Assembly: GCF_018145875.1 (NCBI RefSeq)
Contig: NZ_JAGSSV010000014.1
Coordinates: 1-64,000 of the forward strand
Origin: Marinomonas vulgaris
Lineage (GTDB): Bacteria > Pseudomonadota > Gammaproteobacteria > Pseudomonadales > Marinomonadaceae
Direction of reading: 5' to 3'
Length of the DNA stretch: 64,000 nt
Within the stretch, counting starts at the first letter, position 1; the number at the start of each line of letters is the position of its first letter. The position numbers were made by a program, and so were the translations under genes. The notes under the pieces are model-generated. The model was not told the origin of the DNA, made no database searches, and saw nothing but the letters and a program-made list of their open reading frames with translations. Shown here in pieces: positions 31,742-38,908 of the stretch.

Positions 31742-32848
31742 TCATGCTTTTATAGATCGTAAATGATTATCCCAGTGCATATTGGCGTGATTTTGTACCA
31801 TAACCGTTTGATTTTGAACTGGATTGTTCAAGAGCTGCTTACCGTTGCCGCTGGTGAGTAAGAACTCATGAGCGTTATTCGTTGCCACTAATCCACAGAC
31901 ATCACGGCAGTTTTCCACACCCAAAAAGGTTTTGGAGTTGACGTGCCAGTAGGCTACAAAACCGCCTCTTGGTGTGCTGATTGCCAGCACTTCACCGGAT
32001 TGATCAAAACAGACGCTGCCGCAATACTGTTTGAAGCGCACGCGAATGTTCTCAGGAATGGGTAAATATTCCATTTTAGGCTGGTTAATACGCGACAAGC
32101 CTACTAAAGGCACTTGATCCCATAATTCGCCCTGATACTGAAACCCTAGAGCCACTACACCGTTTGAGTTGACATCTAGGTGACGAATACTCAGCTGATG
32201 AAGGTCTTGCTCGTGAGCGGTATGATGAATGACCTGTCCATCTTTAAGTGACAAATAAGTCACGTTGGGCTGCATGGTGTCGAGATTGAGAATCTCTCGA
32301 TCGTTGTCTGGGTGAGTTTGCAGGCCGCCATTGGCGATAACCAAGACATCCTCATTCAAAAACACCGACTCATGAGGGCCAACCCCGTTGCTTTTAAACA
32401 CGTTAACAATATTGCCGCTGGGCCATTCACGAATGAATATCTTGCCTTGGCCACTTGGGTAATGATTTTCTTGTGTGATCAGTTTGCTTCCATCATGGGT
32501 AAAGAGCGCATGACCGTAAAAGTGATGGTCTTGAGTGGGCTCAATTCGCTGAATACGCTGATTGTTTGACACATCAAAAAAGTCGATAAAAAAGCCGGGG
32601 CGGCGTGCCACGATACCTACAATGCTTTGGTTGGGGTGAATCACGGGAGCATGGGCTCTATCGGTTAAGGGAGATGACCAAATGACGTCGCCCTTTTTAT
32701 CAAATAAGCCAAAAAAATGTTCCGTTTTACTCAAAGAATACGCCGACGCATACAGTGTCGCGCCAGTATTTTGTTGTGTAATAGCCGCCCATGACGGCGC
32801 AGAGAGCACTGCGCCGCTCAAGGCGAGAAATGATCGCCTAGATAGCAT
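31742..32848 (-). CDS. DUF1513 protein, Tat-exported beta-propeller-like
   Basis: A 368-residue protein beginning MLSRRSFLALSGAVLSAPSWA, a twin-arginine signal (R4-R5) with hydrophobic stretch and AxA cleavage. The rest consists of repeated YASAYSLSKTEHFFG-like and GHALFTHDGSKLITQENHY-like blades typical of DUF1513. It is always found with imelysin and DUF1111 genes in iron-regulated clusters; its biochemical role is not established. Last gene in the operon, 2 bp after the imelysin gene. Tat export suggests a cofactor or cytoplasmic folding. Confidence 0.82.
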   Translation of the reverse strand: MLSRRSFLALSGAVLSAPSWAAITQQNTGATLYASAYSLSKTEHFFGLFDKKGDVIWSSPLTDRAHAPVIHPNQSIVGIVARRPGFFIDFFDVSNNQRIQRIEPTQDHHFYGHALFTHDGSKLITQENHYPSGQGKIFIREWPSGNIVNVFKSNGVGPHESVFLNEDVLVIANGGLQTHPDNDREILNLDTMQPNVTYLSLKDGQVIHHTAHEQDLHQLSIRHLDVNSNGVVALGFQYQGELWDQVPLVGLSRINQPKMEYLPIPENIRVRFKQYCGSVCFDQSGEVLAISTPRGGFVAYWHVNSKTFLGVENCRDVCGLVATNNAHEFLLTSGNGKQLLNNPVQNQTVMVQNHANMHWDNHLRSIKA

Positions 32849-32850
32849 GA

Positions 32851-33906
32851 TTAGTCTCCGTCACGACTGTTAAAGCCAATTTGAAAACCCAGTGTTGTGA
32901 CCAAGTTAGCTAAGTAGGTTTGACTATTAGAAATGGATTTTACTAAAGGTATTGCAAGTTCAACGCGCTCTTCTTGTGTGCGACCAGATTGGAAGTAGTC
33001 ATCAGGTAACTGCAAAGCAATTTTAATGTTTTTAGTCAGCTGTTCCTCAAGTTGTTGCGCCAGTTCTGGGCTTTTTTGCAGAGCCATGTCATATAAAGAA
33101 GGTGAACCTACATGGTAAATTTCACGATAAGACTGCAAATTTCGTTGAATAGCTTTTAACGACAAATCACTACGATAAAACTCGGCCAATTTTAAATTTT
33201 CACGGCTGTTGTAGCCAATGGGCGTTTCTAATTTAGCGTCTTTTACAGCGGACATATGTTCAATCCACTGTTGTAAAAATTGTTCTAACGCAACGGACTC
33301 AGCATCAAAACCACTGCCTTCTTCATCGAACACCCAATCTTGCGCTTTGGCTTCTTGCCATTGCTTGGCAACCGCGTTGGCGCTATCAAAGTGATGTGCC
33401 GTAACTTTTTGTAACAACTGACATTGAGTGGCTGATTCCGATGGTGTGAAGTCTGGGTGATACAATAAGCTTTCGACGGCGGTTAAGCCACGTACTGCAA
33501 TACTGGCCGATGTCCAGAATTTTGGCGCATCCATCACAGCAGGATCACCCTGTGCCAAAGCTCTAAGTTGACGTTGAGTAACGCCTTTTTTGTCTGGCCA
33601 GTATTCAAATGCGTAATAACGCATAAAGTAGGTGACAGGGCCAAAATTTAACCATTGTACCTGTTGCCAATCTAGCGCATTGGTTTGAAACGCTGTTTGA
33701 GCTTGCAACAAGCTTTGATCGGAAGGAGCGGCACAAAATGCTTGCGTCGCTTGCTGCAATTGCTGAGATGAATCTGAAAATACGCTGTAGCCCTGTTTAA
33801 TCACTTGATTGGTGATGCCACCAAGAGGGCCTTGCCATTCACCTGCAGACACCATAAAAGACGTGGTGCTGATGGCCAAAGCTAACAATTTAGGAAAATA
33901 ATTCAT
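32851..33906 (-). CDS. Imelysin-family periplasmic protein lacking the GxHxxE motif
   Basis: 351 residues from the ATG at 33906, which overlaps the preceding stop (TAATG) and has GGAG ahead; a signal peptide runs to SAGEW. It is an all-helical imelysin (peptidase M75-like) protein. Where the lipoprotein paralogue upstream carries GYHAIEFLLWG, this one reads GLTAVESLLYH: the metal-linked His of GxHxxE is replaced by Thr. It probably acts as a binding or structural partner of the di-haem protein in periplasmic iron handling rather than as a peptidase. Confidence 0.82.
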   Translation of the reverse strand: MNYFPKLLALAISTTSFMVSAGEWQGPLGGITNQVIKQGYSVFSDSSQQLQQATQAFCAAPSDQSLLQAQTAFQTNALDWQQVQWLNFGPVTYFMRYYAFEYWPDKKGVTQRQLRALAQGDPAVMDAPKFWTSASIAVRGLTAVESLLYHPDFTPSESATQCQLLQKVTAHHFDSANAVAKQWQEAKAQDWVFDEEGSGFDAESVALEQFLQQWIEHMSAVKDAKLETPIGYNSRENLKLAEFYRSDLSLKAIQRNLQSYREIYHVGSPSLYDMALQKSPELAQQLEEQLTKNIKIALQLPDDYFQSGRTQEERVELAIPLVKSISNSQTYLANLVTTLGFQIGFNSRDGD

Positions 33907-35312
33907 TAAAGCGACTCCAAAAAGTAAATGAGTTTTTCTCTGTGTTCTTTCTTTAAATTCTTGTACGCCATTTGACTCTGTTTGGCTTCTCCGCCATGCC
34001 AAAGTATGGCTTCTTCTATGGTTCTAGCACGACCGTCGTGTAAAAATCCCACACGACCTGAAACGGATTCAGATAAGCCAATACCCCATAGAGGTGCGGT
34101 TCTCCATTCACTAGGAGAAGCCGAAAAGCTTGGGAATTCACTGGCTAGTCCAGGCCCCATATCGTGAAGTAAAAGATCGGTAAAGGGATAAAAGGTGCGT
34201 TGGTTTAACTCGGAGAACGGCGAATTTGTTCCCGTTTGCATTTTTGGGGTATGGCAGCTAGCGCATCCGGTGTTTTCAAATAGCGTTTTGCCTTCTAAAA
34301 ATGTGCTTGAACTGAGGTTACGCATGGCTGGTGGTGCCGATAGAGACACAAATAAATCCACCAAGTGCATTTGTTTTTTATCTACTTCCAAGTTGTCTAA
34401 GTGGGCGCTGTTTCCATTTGGACTGGTCAAACAATGGACTTGGTATCCAGTGCAATCTCCAGAGGCATAGGGCATGAGCGGGGTAGAAAGCCCCATATCA
34501 ATGTTAAATGCCTGTTGATTTTGCGCGCTTACGGTGGGGCTGGAAGCTTTGTAGCCAAACCGCCCTACCACTGGTGGGGTATTAGTCCCCGTTCGCACCC
34601 AGCTGACTCGTCCGCTGATACCATCATTGTTTGCATCTTTTGGATCTGCATTAGCAGCAATGGTGTCATCCGTCACTGCATCTAATAATCCCATGCCTAC
34701 CAATGATGGTGCAACCAGCATGCTGATACCAGTACGTTTATCAAGATCTCCATAATAAAGTTGATCCCAATGCAGGTTTGGTGTGCGTAGATTGACTTGG
34801 GAGCCATCGGCAAGCACTTCAACTTTTTCTGTATAGCTAAGGTGATAGTCACCTTCTGGCTGAATCCCTGCAGAGCTCTGCCCTTGCAATTGATGACCAT
34901 ATTTCGGATCACCAAGATGTGGGTAGATTCTGCTAGTAAAGTCCGTATCAGCTGGATAGGTTCGCCCAAACCTAACAAAAAAAGAGGGCACGCTAGAGCC
35001 ACTTATACCCGCGTTTGGAGGGTGACCTCGACCATTATTGATATGGCAGCTGTGACAAGAGCGGGCATTGTACAAAGGACCTAAGCCATCACTGGCGGTG
35101 GTCGAAGAAGGCGAGGCTACCCAGAATTTTTGAAAAATGGCTTCACCCACCTTGAAGTTTAGTTTGTCTTCTAGGGTGATGTTAGACACAGGCTTAGAAT
35201 AGTCGCTGGCAAAACTAAGTGGCTGAAAACAAAAAAAGCCGACCAAAATGCCAGCGAATGGACGAACCCATAAAAAGGGTATGTGGGTCATAAACACATA
35301 TAAACCATTCAA
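33906..35312 (-). CDS. Di-haem (DUF1111) oxidoreductase-like c-type cytochrome
   Basis: A 468-residue exported protein with an N-terminal signal/anchor (about 8-35). Two CxxCH haem c sites are present, RSCHSCHINNG (about 90) and TGCASCHTPK (about 352), and the C-terminal GFLHDGRARTIEEAILWHGGEA signature typical of DUF1111 and distantly of MauG-like di-haem peroxidases. It is coupled to the downstream imelysin gene. A redox role in periplasmic iron uptake or oxidation is inferred from this recurrent cluster. Confidence 0.87.
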   Translation of the reverse strand: MNGLYVFMTHIPFLWVRPFAGILVGFFCFQPLSFASDYSKPVSNITLEDKLNFKVGEAIFQKFWVASPSSTTASDGLGPLYNARSCHSCHINNGRGHPPNAGISGSSVPSFFVRFGRTYPADTDFTSRIYPHLGDPKYGHQLQGQSSAGIQPEGDYHLSYTEKVEVLADGSQVNLRTPNLHWDQLYYGDLDKRTGISMLVAPSLVGMGLLDAVTDDTIAANADPKDANNDGISGRVSWVRTGTNTPPVVGRFGYKASSPTVSAQNQQAFNIDMGLSTPLMPYASGDCTGYQVHCLTSPNGNSAHLDNLEVDKKQMHLVDLFVSLSAPPAMRNLSSSTFLEGKTLFENTGCASCHTPKMQTGTNSPFSELNQRTFYPFTDLLLHDMGPGLASEFPSFSASPSEWRTAPLWGIGLSESVSGRVGFLHDGRARTIEEAILWHGGEAKQSQMAYKNLKKEHREKLIYFLESL

Positions 35313-35321
35313 AATTGAAAG

Positions 35322-35362
35322 AAAAACAGTGCTATTAGTAGCAATATATTAGCACTGTTTTT
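35322..35362. terminator. Strong hairpin between the lipoprotein imelysin gene and the DUF1111 gene
   Basis: AAAAACAGTGCTA (35322-35334) pairs with TAGCACTGTTTTT (35350-35362), 13 perfect bp with A/T ends, so it can terminate in both directions. It sits only 10 bp before the DUF1111 start codon, so read-through from the upstream promoter, or a promoter close to the hairpin, must serve the three downstream genes. Confidence 0.8.
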
Positions 35363-35392
35363 CAATGGGGTTATAACAAAGACAATAGGCGA

Positions 35393-36688
35393 TTATTCAA
35401 AAACAGCGCCTGGGTTGTCTAGGCTATCAGAGCCTTCGAGCGCGATGCCTTGAAGATCTAGGTGATGGATGACATCTTCTGTTACACGAGTTTCATCTAC
35501 TAAAGAATCAACAAAGGTTTGCACCAACTGATTGCCTTGGGTGTTGTTCATGGCAATAAGAACATCAAATGTTTGACCTTGTTTTGCCGCATCAACCATA
35601 GCTTGAGCTGCCATTTCTGTTGCGTTCAACTTCTGCTTCATTTCGGTATCAAGTGCTAGGTTGTCTTGAGCAATCAAAGCAGACAAAGATGCGCCTTTTA
35701 CCCAGCTGCCGTCGACTCGTTCGTATTCGCCAAGGTAAGCATTTTTGATGCCTTTGGCATCGTAGTAATGTGACCAATGGGTGTTATCAGAGAAACAATC
35801 GTGCTCTTCTTCTGGATCATGAAGCATCAGGCCAAGCTTGGTTCTTTCGCCACCAAGTTCACCATAGGCCAAACTGCCCATACCCGTTAGGATAGTAGAT
35901 AGACCTTGCTCCGGTGTTTGTTCTAGTAACGCAACACGAGCGGCACCACCTTGTTTCCAGTTGTCTGCCATTTCTTCTAGATCAGTAATCAGCAAATCTG
36001 TCGCTGCGCTTAGGTAAGCACGACGGCGATCACAGTGACCGTTGGTGCAGTTTTCTAGATCGAAATCACTGGCTGGACGTTCACCCGCGCCTGGGTTAGT
36101 ACCATTAAGATCTTGCCCCCACAATAAGAACTCGATTGCGTGGTAACCACTGGCCACGTTCGCTTCGATGCCATCGGCTTCTTGCAGTGATTCAGCAATG
36201 AGTTCAGGCGTGATGTTCGTCGCATCAACTTTCTTACCGCCAATCATCAAATTTTTAGATGCAATAACGTTGGCAGAGTAGAGCGGGTTAATGTCAGATT
36301 CTGACCCATAGCTATCAACAGAAACGTAATCGATCAAACCTTCGTCTAATGGCCAAGCGTTAACCTTACCTTCCCAGTCGTCCACAATGGCATTACCAAA
36401 GCGGTATACTTCACTTTGCTGATAAGGAACACGAGCAGCAATCCACGCGGTACGAGCGGCTTGTAAGTTAGCTTCTGTTGGCTCTGCAAGGAAGGCATCG
36501 ATGGACGTACGCAAGGTTTGAGCAGTGGTTAACGAGTCAGAGTAAATAGCTTCTGCCATATCGGCATAATGCACAACAACCGATTCAGCGTTAACAGCAG
36601 AGGTTTCATTTTTGACAACAGCTGTACCACATGCAGTAAGCATGACACTTGATACGCAGACGGCGATTGGGGTTAGAAAACGTTTCAT
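35393..36688 (-). CDS. Imelysin-family lipoprotein (iron-regulated, IrpA/ICMP-like)
   Basis: 431 residues from the ATG at 36688 (MKRFLTPIAVCVSSVMLTAC), a lipoprotein signal with lipobox LTAC; the longer upstream reading lies in the promoter. The mature part is a duplicated helical imelysin fold with the GxHxxE motif intact (GYHAIEFLLWGQD), RVPYQQSEVYRFGN and DNTHWSHYYDAKGIKNAYLG. Proteins of this group bind iron or haem-linked ligands and are induced on iron starvation. A Fur-like box lies 46 bp upstream. It is first gene of the cluster and is followed by a strong hairpin. Confidence 0.88.
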   Translation of the reverse strand: MKRFLTPIAVCVSSVMLTACGTAVVKNETSAVNAESVVVHYADMAEAIYSDSLTTAQTLRTSIDAFLAEPTEANLQAARTAWIAARVPYQQSEVYRFGNAIVDDWEGKVNAWPLDEGLIDYVSVDSYGSESDINPLYSANVIASKNLMIGGKKVDATNITPELIAESLQEADGIEANVASGYHAIEFLLWGQDLNGTNPGAGERPASDFDLENCTNGHCDRRRAYLSAATDLLITDLEEMADNWKQGGAARVALLEQTPEQGLSTILTGMGSLAYGELGGERTKLGLMLHDPEEEHDCFSDNTHWSHYYDAKGIKNAYLGEYERVDGSWVKGASLSALIAQDNLALDTEMKQKLNATEMAAQAMVDAAKQGQTFDVLIAMNNTQGNQLVQTFVDSLVDETRVTEDVIHHLDLQGIALEGSDSLDNPGAVFE

Positions 36689-36733: not shown

Positions 36734-36752
36734 GAAAACGATTATCAATGAC
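36734..36752. promoter_or_regulatory. Fur-box-like sequence before the imelysin lipoprotein gene
   Basis: GAAAACGATTATCAATGAC matches the 19-bp Fur consensus GATAATGATAATCATTATC at 13 positions, including the central GAT-ATCA core. It is located 46 bp before the ATG, where it would overlap the promoter. Iron control is expected for this gene family. Confidence 0.65.
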
Positions 36753-36810
36753 TCTTTATTGGATGGTATTTACTTATTTTTTGTGAACTTTACCAATTGT
36801 TGTAATTATT

Positions 36811-37389
36811 TTACTGCCCGCACTGGTGATGAAATGTGTTTTCAGCACCATTTGCTAGATTATAGTCGCAAGCACTTTCTCTTAATGAATTGGATTTTTC
36901 CCAAGAGACATTCATGGTAATAGGTGTGGTGTTTTTGTAGCTTGGGATAAAACGATACGCCGCCATAACGGTTGTTGAGCTATTCGGGCCCAATTCTATA
37001 GATTTGCCAATTAAACGCTGGCGCGTTTCTACGTTATAAAGGACATAATCGGTTGTGTACTCTTGATCGCCATTTTCATGTAGAAAGTTCAGCCATATCT
37101 TACGATAACTTTGTGGCTCAGAAGTAGGGTTAGTAAATTGCAGCTTGGTATAAATCACTTGCGCAGTCGATAGGCTCGATTGAGCATTCTGATTAACCGT
37201 TAAATACGAAGATCGAGATGTTTGCCAAGGCAGTGTGTTACCAAACGAAGCGTCCACAATATGAATACTCTCAGAAGCCATTTGACTGCTCAAATAGCGC
37301 AAGACGTCTTTTGTTGGGGCATATAGCGCCAGCACGAGAATGGTTAAGAATATGATATTTCGAGTGCGGTAAGTGAATTTCATCGTCAT
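36811..37389 (-). CDS. Unknown membrane-anchored protein under tandem SOS boxes
   Basis: I do not recognise this 192-residue protein. It has one N-terminal membrane helix (about residues 10-25, IIFLTILVLALYAP) and a short basic cytoplasmic tail, so the rest is probably periplasmic. That part looks like a beta-sandwich (VIYTKLQFTNPTSEPQSY, SIELGPNSSTTVMAAYRF, PITMNVSWEK), with two Cys near the C terminus (ACDYN, HQCGQ) that could form a disulfide. The ATG at 37389 has AGGA six bases ahead. Two LexA-type boxes end 22 bp upstream, so DNA-damage induction is predicted. A cell-division checkpoint or envelope role is conceivable but unproven. Confidence 0.65.
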   Translation of the reverse strand: MTMKFTYRTRNIIFLTILVLALYAPTKDVLRYLSSQMASESIHIVDASFGNTLPWQTSRSSYLTVNQNAQSSLSTAQVIYTKLQFTNPTSEPQSYRKIWLNFLHENGDQEYTTDYVLYNVETRQRLIGKSIELGPNSSTTVMAAYRFIPSYKNTTPITMNVSWEKSNSLRESACDYNLANGAENTFHHQCGQ

Positions 37390-37410
37390 AACGAGTCCTA
37401 ATGCTTTGAG

Positions 37411-37444
37411 CTGTTTATTTATACAGTACTGTATATATAAACAG
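37411..37444. promoter_or_regulatory. Two tandem LexA (SOS) boxes
   Basis: CTGTTTATTTATACAG (37411-37426) and CTGTATATATAAACAG (37429-37444) each match CTGT-N8-ACAG with an AT-rich spacer, the gammaproteobacterial LexA consensus. Their centres are 18 bp apart. They lie directly before the minus-strand gene starting at 37389. Confidence 0.82.
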
Positions 37445-37668
37445 TTTATTTGTATAGACTGAGATCAATTTAATTGAATTTTTTTTGCAAACAAGAGGTG
37501 TATAGGCTTGAAAATTAATATTTTCATTATTTGTGAAATAAAGTTTGATTTTGTTTAGTTAATTGAAAAATAAGAGTTTTTTTATGATTCCCACAGCCTT
37601 CTTAACGGTTTCTGTGGACAACATTTGACGCTTTACTGAAGTTGTATGAAATATAGAGTCTGAGGAAG

Positions 37669-37696
37669 ATACCCAGTGATCACTGGGTATTGTTTT
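37669..37696 (+). terminator. Terminator-like perfect palindrome with T run on the plus strand
   Basis: ATACCCAGTGA/TCACTGGGTAT (37669-37690) is an 11-bp perfect inverted repeat followed by TGTTTTT on the plus strand. No plus-strand gene ends here, although the minus-strand flavoprotein gene ends at 37730, so it could terminate a small RNA or insulate the region. Confidence 0.5.
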
Positions 37697-37729: not shown

Positions 37730-38908
37730 TTAAACATACTGCCCAGCGCAGTACCCGCTAGACCAGGCCCAGCTGAAATTGTACCCCCCCAACCAGCCTG
37801 TTACGTCTAGCACTTCACCAATGAAATAAAGGTTTTTTTGCTTTTGAGATTCGAATGTTTTTGATGATATTTCATTGGTGTTGATGCCGCCTAGGGTCAC
37901 TTCTGCGGTGCGGTAGCCTTCGGTGCCATTGGGTTGTACATCGAAGTGGGTTAAGTAGGCAAATAAGTCTGAAATTTGTTCATTGGAGGTTTGTGCACTG
38001 CGTTCGTTTAGCCAGTTGAATTCTTCTTTAATCAGTTCTACTAGGCGTTTTGGCAATAGCTGAGACAATAAACTTTCGAAGCTTTTCTTTGGTGTGTTTT
38101 GGCGAACCGCAATCAGATCATCCAATGAAAGCGTTGGGGTGATGTTGATCTGAAGGTCGTCGCCAGGTTGCCAAAAGTTAGTGATTTGCAAAATAGCGGG
38201 GCCACTGATGCCGCGATGTGTAAACAGCATGGGTTCCTGAAAAGTCATGCCCTGTGAGGTTGTGCTGATGTCGCAGGCGATACCGGATAAAGCCGCGAAC
38301 TGGTTTTTTCGATCGGGCTGAACCGTTATCGGCACCAAGCTGGCTCGAGTCGGTAACACTTGATGACCGACTTGTTTGGCGATCTCGTAACCAAATCCGC
38401 TGGCGCCCATGGTTGGAATCGACAAGCCGCCTGTGGCCACCACCAAAGAGCGACATTGAAAGTCACCCTGATTGGTTTTGACCACAGTGAAATCTTCTTT
38501 GAAATCAATGTTCTTGACTGTGGTATTGAGGGAAAGCTGCGCACCAGACCATTCTAATTCGGTTAATAAAATGTCTAATAAATCTTTTGCAGAATGCTCG
38601 CAGAACAGCTGGCCGGGGGCTTTTTCAACGTAATCCAGTCCATGTCGATCCACCAGATCGACAAAATCTTGCGTGGTGAAGCGGCGTAGCGCCGAAATGC
38701 AAAAGTGCGGGTTGTCTGATAAAAAATGCTTGGGAGCCGTATCCATGTTGGTAAAATTACAGCGCCCGCCGCCAGACATGAGGATTTTTTTCCCCGCTTT
38801 GTTGGCGTGGTCCAAAACAAGTACGCTTTTGCCACGATAACCCGCAGTAGCAGCACACATTAAGCCAGATGCACCGGCCCCGATTACAATCACATCAACC
38901 TTGTTCAC
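37730..38908 (-). CDS. HI0933/YhiN-family FAD-dependent oxidoreductase
   Basis: A 392-residue flavoprotein. The N-terminal dinucleotide motif VIVIGAGASGLMCAATAGYRG is followed by the family signature KILMSGGGRCNFTN at about 45. CRSLVVATGGLSIPTMGASGFGYEIA is the second flavin contact, and the C-terminal LYFIGEVLDVTGWLGGYNFSWAWSSG closes the FAD site. Members are NAD(P)/FAD oxidoreductases of uncertain physiological substrate (BaiN-like). The gene stands alone between the SOS region and paaX, on the same strand as paaX, 81 bp downstream of it. Confidence 0.87.
   Translation of the reverse strand: MNKVDVIVIGAGASGLMCAATAGYRGKSVLVLDHANKAGKKILMSGGGRCNFTNMDTAPKHFLSDNPHFCISALRRFTTQDFVDLVDRHGLDYVEKAPGQLFCEHSAKDLLDILLTELEWSGAQLSLNTTVKNIDFKEDFTVVKTNQGDFQCRSLVVATGGLSIPTMGASGFGYEIAKQVGHQVLPTRASLVPITVQPDRKNQFAALSGIACDISTTSQGMTFQEPMLFTHRGISGPAILQITNFWQPGDDLQINITPTLSLDDLIAVRQNTPKKSFESLLSQLLPKRLVELIKEEFNWLNERSAQTSNEQISDLFAYLTHFDVQPNGTEGYRTAEVTLGGINTNEISSKTFESQKQKNLYFIGEVLDVTGWLGGYNFSWAWSSGYCAGQYV

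Follow-up and report, generated by a model that had tools for sequence, protein, structure and literature searches.

Our analysis suggests that the gene for a 192-residue envelope protein, located at positions 36811-37389 (minus strand, ATG start) of the window, i.e. the whole 64,000-nucleotide stretch examined here, is regulated by LexA, and the best explanation of the sequence data is a member of the LexA (SOS) regulon that is specific to Marinomonas. Control of the gene by LexA appears close to certain from its upstream sequence. The complete chain of events that we propose, in which this LexA-controlled protein would be exported and would delay septation from the periplasmic side, has a probability of about 0.4. 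The regulatory reading can be regarded as solid in silico and the division reading as plausible by analogy with known systems. How division stops during DNA repair in bacteria devoid of SulA is known in few models, and in 36 of the 48 genomes of the genus the single perfect tandem of LexA boxes lies before the uncharacterised gene described here.

A single-copy core gene restricted to Marinomonas

The sequence-only reading of this DNA had pointed to a protein of 192 residues, and its reading frame was confirmed; it has no family above a curated cut-off. The window genome (G000) comprises 3.45 Mb in 56 contigs. In a first round of comparison, all 35 genomes of the genus that were examined, the window genome among them, encoded the protein, as against 0 of 21 genomes from elsewhere in the order. 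For the other members of the family, the start was taken as the most upstream ATG located 3' of the last LexA box. A profile search with the 35-member alignment then gave one match each in 47 of 48 Marinomonas genomes, in which the gene is single-copy, and the only genome of the genus without a match is 77% complete. These 48 genomes stand for the whole family, which is represented here by this single genus, and the same profile matched 0 of the 234 other genomes of the order. Three outside matches among 369 genomes of the class (E-values of 0.0047, 0.0939 and 0.0998) were partial, two of them being broken by stops, and were taken as chance. No relative was detected on plasmids and phages with the 192-residue protein as query or on viral contigs with the profile.

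The median dN/dS is 0.056 for the 36 pairs with an estimable dS, out of 47 close pairs of more than 78% identity. As judged from these sequence comparisons, the gene is a real, selected core gene under purifying selection. A prophage or another mobile origin is rejected on account of its presence in 47 of the 48 genomes, by its stable HI0933-like neighbour and by the lack of plasmid, phage and viral relatives in these searches. In the open-licence literature on LexA, SOS or mitomycin C in Marinomonas and on the LexA regulon of Oceanospirillales, we found no study of this gene.

Tandem LexA boxes conserved as a unit

Two perfect CTGT-N8-ACAG boxes precede the gene on its own (minus) strand, as had been claimed from the sequence: a proximal one at 37411-37426 (CTGTATAAATAAACAG) and a distal one at 37429-37444 (CTGTTTATATATACAG). 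Neither contains a mismatch, their starts are 18 bp apart and the spacer is the dinucleotide TA. The gap between the proximal box and the ATG is 21 bp, one less than the 22 bp initially given, and the proximal 16-mer is identical to the box of recN. No other perfect box occurs in the window. Considered as single sites, such boxes prove little, since 14 of 100 shuffled versions of the window also gave at least two perfect ones and since the whole genome contains 38 single perfect sites versus 39 for the reversed control. These counts are what speaks for chance AT-rich palindromes in front of a gene that would not be SOS-controlled; they leave room for this explanation, and it is the conservation and the uniqueness of the tandem that lead us to reject it.

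At least one perfect box is found upstream of all 47 orthologues (35 first loci and 12 further ones). Among the 35 first loci, for which the 18-bp spacing was imposed when fitting the pair of boxes, 28 display both boxes in a perfect form at this spacing and six carry one mismatch, which is in the proximal box; L035, a locus near a contig end, has a decayed distal box with four mismatches. Across the 16 bases that the two boxes specify, 34 of these 35 loci therefore deviate at one position or none, and the remaining 116,053 bp of the same loci contain no perfect box. The mean information per column over the 35 loci reaches 1.51 and 1.62 bits in the boxes and 1.91 bits in the spacer, versus 0.61 bits over the 40 preceding bases and 0.66 bits over the 14 that follow. 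Of the 12 further genomes, eight have the perfect tandem, three (L061, L052 and L053) have one perfect box, and L098 has two perfect boxes at a spacing other than 18 bp.

Taken as a 34-bp unit, the perfect tandem is present in 36 of the 48 genomes of the genus, exactly once in each, with 0 occurrences of the reversed control pattern in the same 48 genomes. All 36 copies sit 13-74 bp before a match to the 192-residue protein, a distance that ends where the profile match begins, not at the start codon. One tandem per genome, always at the same gene, together with the sharp difference in information between boxes and flanks, makes the chance explanation extremely improbable. Outside the genus, the perfect tandem with 18-bp spacing occurs in 4 of the 234 other genomes of the order (L142, L143, L144 and L145), where it precedes lexA in three genomes of one genus and recA in the fourth, both proteins having been recognised by eye. 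The use of the same arrangement at lexA and recA elsewhere suggests that it marks core SOS promoters.

A possible sigma-70 core promoter overlaps the boxes at 37428-37456 on the minus strand, with a -35 element TATACA (37451-37456), a 17-nt spacer and a -10 element TACAGT (37428-37433). This candidate, weakly suggested by an invariant T located 12 bases before the distal box, matches the consensus at 8 of 12 positions and is absent from the list of the promoter scanner; the -35 element is apparently shifted in one subclade. The candidate -10 element overlaps the distal box and the spacer, and the transcription start point would fall in the proximal box. With this layout, LexA would stand in the way of RNA polymerase whichever of the two boxes it occupied.

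Ranking among the LexA sites of the genome

The 38 perfect sites of the genome include AT-rich ones before uvrA, yebG, recN, lexA and recA, lexA being divergent from dinG. The box of umuD is found at the gene start, where it overlaps the longest possible reading frame. RecN, UmuD (subfamily model), LexA and RecA passed the curated NCBIfam cut-off; YebG fell below it, and so did UvrA and DinG, both of which are cut by the end of their locus. We scored all perfect sites with a matrix trained on these six other SOS promoters (uvrA, yebG, recN, umuD, lexA/dinG and recA), without the own boxes of the gene under study. The distal box ranks first and the proximal box joint third among the 38 sites, bearing in mind that the high ranks of the six training sites follow from the way the matrix was built and that the proximal 16-mer, being that of recN, is itself in the training set. 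A clear gap in matrix score separates the top eight sites (at least 19.2) from the rest (at most 14.8), and lower-scoring perfect sites such as the one before sucC were taken as chance. Seven loci stand behind the top eight sites, and the 192-codon gene is the only one of them whose own product lacks a named family; divergent genes, which may or may not be under the same control, also adjoin uvrA, yebG and recN. The SOS control predicted from the sequence alone is thus strongly supported in silico, by a conserved and unique tandem and by first and joint third ranks in the matrix scoring.

In the same genome, a strong LexA box also separates yebG from a divergently oriented gene that weakly matches MscS channels (L081:564-1484). 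By its position next to this box, the MscS-like gene may be SOS-controlled as well.

A predicted exported protein with an Ig-like domain

The view that the protein is unrecognised was borne out by Pfam and NCBIfam and by the failure to find it outside the genus. In Pfam, no family exceeded its cut-off, the best being DUF5067 (E-value of 0.015, 15.7 bits versus a cut-off of 27), for which weak matches were seen in 5 of the 35 members. NCBIfam gave no match with the window protein as sole query. LysM was absent among Pfam matches at E-values up to 1 for all 35 members, and PF03846 (SulA) was not among the Pfam matches of these members either. With four of the 35 members as queries, PHROGs returned one match (E-value of 0.43) and PADLOC none, which argues against a defence gene as far as these four are concerned. 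A profile search of the PDB produced two matches at an E-value of about 1, which were taken as chance.

The AlphaFold2 model of the protein contains a helix (residues 7-37) followed by a beta-sandwich, with a mean pLDDT of 81.8, and the aligned sequence that diverges most is predicted, at lower confidence (pLDDT of 74.7), with the same order of elements plus an additional C-terminal strand. These predictions support what had been anticipated from the sequence, namely a helix at the N-terminus and a beta-rich domain. On the minus strand of the window, a short apolar segment of about residues 11-26 (37312-37359), which could be a signal anchor or the core of a signal peptide, has at its end the motif YAPxKD (residues 23-28; 37306-37323) and precedes a predicted periplasmic Ig-like beta-sandwich (residues 39-192; 36814-37275). 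The motif is invariant in all 35 members, as are many residues of the sandwich and two cysteines, Cys174 and Cys190, between which a disulfide is possible. The structural neighbours are generic sandwiches (ApaG, a FixG-related protein, TRAP luminal domains, PCuAC and DUF4352-type phage proteins), no row of which stands out, and the best Z-score of 7.8 is at a level common among unrelated models. The protein has the beta-sandwich in common with DUF5067/DUF4352-type Ig-like proteins, ApaG and the FixG-related protein, but its DUF5067 score is well below the cut-off and its resemblance to the ApaG/FixG-type sandwiches reaches a Z-score of 7.8 at best. A copper chaperone of the PCuAC type was rejected, as only one histidine and no methionine pattern are invariant.

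The apolar run counts 14-17 residues in all 35 members (15 in 24 of them), and the net charge before the run is higher than after it in 34 of the 35, with a tie in L027. This bias makes export with the N-terminus in likely, and the C-terminus would then likely lie outside the inner membrane; the predicted beta-sandwich and the invariant pair of cysteines point the same way. With 14-17 residues, the run falls short of a usual membrane span and is of normal length for the core of a signal peptide, and it is a first point for the main rival of the proposed chain: an SOS-induced periplasmic protein, soluble or loosely attached after cleavage of its signal peptide, which would protect or remodel the envelope during genotoxic stress with no direct effect on division. 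A possible cleavage site after residue 21, with A, V, T or S at -3 in 24 of 35 members, is in line with such a protectant, as is the generic Ig-like or cupredoxin-like nature of the nearest folds (ApaG, PCuAC, FixG-related protein and TRAP luminal domains). The same site has I or L at -3 in 10 of 35 members, and P at -3 with T at -1 in L019. Moreover, a protein that merely protects the envelope would not usually be kept under such tight double repression, and we consider this explanation, although the most serious rival, as rather unlikely. Since no helix-breaking region precedes the site, the helix of the model runs continuously from residue 7 to 37 and an invariant motif occupies the boundary, an anchor is moderately favoured over a cleaved signal peptide. 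Mean column conservation is 0.53 for residues 11-22 versus 0.79 for residues 21-31.

A possible SOS control of septation from the periplasm

In the chain that we favour, LexA bound on both boxes would impose a tight block of transcription, and RecA-driven LexA cleavage upon DNA damage would lift this repression. Export would bring the C-terminus of the protein to the outside, and the short N-terminal segment would hold the protein in place. The Ig-like domain and its YAPxKD base would dock on an inner-membrane partner, either in the late divisome or in the septal peptidoglycan machinery, and septation would be delayed by the docked protein until the DNA has been repaired. The protein would stand in for SulA and follow the logic of SosA, YneA and SidA with an unrelated sequence.

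If the protein does act on division, SulA would resemble it in physiological role, but SulA is a cytosolic inhibitor of FtsZ, and its family PF03846 is unmatched among the 35 members. In a search for which the control retrieved E. coli, PF03846 was found in 0 of the 48 genomes of the genus. It was found in 95 of the 234 other genomes of the order, where the matches include long frames that may be ImuA-like, and it is missing from the other 139. The absence of SulA from the genus counts for little as evidence, since these 139 genomes also lack PF03846 and none of the 234 has the 192-codon gene; besides, the gene arose once, so that there is no correlation with SulA loss to draw on. A role in division can nevertheless be hypothesized by analogy, as it would fit both this absence and a layout similar to that of SosA and YneA.

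According to PMC6851548, the SOS division inhibitors of several Gram-positive rods share little homology, have one span and an extracellular C-terminus, and all carry LysM except DivS. SosA of Staphylococcus aureus, as described in the same paper, is highly conserved just after its span, where Asp44 is needed. The protein studied here resembles SosA in being lineage-restricted and under SOS-type control, in its N-terminal apolar segment and predicted extracytoplasmic C-terminus (PMC6851548), and in having its strongest conservation in what is probably the stretch just outside the membrane. In contrast, SosA counts 77 residues, which leaves no room for such a sandwich, and inhibition of division is demonstrated for SosA only. 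According to PMC13396833, YneA of Bacillus subtilis and ChiZ of Mycobacterium tuberculosis are induced by DNA damage and combine one span with a folded domain outside the cytoplasm, features similar to those predicted here. The same paper reports that residues of the YneA span contact FtsW and that the LysM domain is what YneA acts through; from models described there as not of high confidence, the authors suggest FtsW as a common target of such proteins. The difference is that YneA and ChiZ carry LysM domains, whereas the family studied here has no LysM match in any of 35 members and a variable apolar segment. With a mean conservation of 0.53 in that segment, a YneA-like contact between the span and FtsW is disfavoured, and any contact with the divisome would run through YAPxKD and the sandwich.

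SidA and DidA of Caulobacter crescentus are very small proteins that are not known to carry a large periplasmic domain. They have in common with the protein studied here a Gram-negative host, and damage induction on their side is paralleled by SOS-type boxes on the other. Both are presented in PMC13396833 as DNA-damage-induced small membrane proteins that act on FtsW or FtsN, and DidA is SOS-independent (PMC4211646). By analogy with all these systems, the 192-residue protein plausibly matches the logic of SOS inhibitors, with strict repression, export and a conserved motif at the membrane boundary. Against the division reading, the apolar run of 14-17 residues is short for a span, and the known SOS division inhibitors offer no parallel for a large Ig-like domain that lacks a peptidoglycan-binding signature.

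Strict repression and an N-terminal apolar segment could also be found in an SOS-induced toxin-like membrane protein causing growth arrest, persistence or lysis, with the logic of TisB or of the colicin lysis genes. Tandem LexA boxes recall colicin genes, in which two overlapping SOS boxes prevent untimely, lethal expression, as stated in PMC2994835; the same paper mentions that E. coli lexA also carries two boxes, so a tandem need not signal a harmful product. Several points argue against a toxin-like protein, which we view as improbable: the gene belongs to the core of the genus, with one copy in each of 47 genomes out of 48, its product has a large conserved folded domain, phages and plasmids yielded no relatives, and no partner is evident among open reading frames of at least 60 residues.

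On the side of the division reading, we tentatively put forward that Marinomonas, without SulA, uses an undescribed SOS checkpoint belonging to its genus core, in which a periplasmic Ig-like domain would halt septal wall synthesis; we hold this as a possibility that is not the leading expectation. To our knowledge, such a periplasmic Ig-like SOS block of septation is reported from no other gammaproteobacterial chromosome. If the checkpoint is true, it would add a periplasmic Ig-like module to the SOS division inhibitors and would offer a natural handle on septal wall synthesis.

Gene neighbourhood

Downstream of the gene, the region 31742-36688 (minus strand) encodes in a row an imelysin, a di-haem oxidoreductase (DHOR), a second imelysin and a DUF1513 protein, all assigned by Pfam, and 30 of 35 loci have an imelysin gene next in line with the same orientation. 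This association would fit an accessory of the imelysin/di-haem operon, involved in iron or haem handling and only incidentally responsive to DNA damage. However, the gene and its boxes are retained in five loci (L021, L022, L023, L024 and L029) where about 1.5 kb of downstream sequence shows no imelysin match, from which the two units are read as independent. They are also set apart in the window by an intervening promoter-like site, although such sites are no commoner there than in shuffles (2 versus a mean of 3.7). A function as operon accessory is consequently quite improbable. A Fur-box-like sequence, read by eye, lies near 36735-36755 before the imelysin genes, and the operon is probably iron-regulated and separate from the LexA-controlled gene, as far as these sequence elements can tell.

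On the other side, 34 of 35 loci have an HI0933-like flavoprotein gene upstream; the remaining locus lies at a contig start. In the window, this gene (37730-38908) has the same orientation as the 192-codon gene, whereas it is opposite in the other 33 loci; it thus appears locally inverted in the window genome. A terminator-like palindrome is located at 37668-37691, between the two genes.
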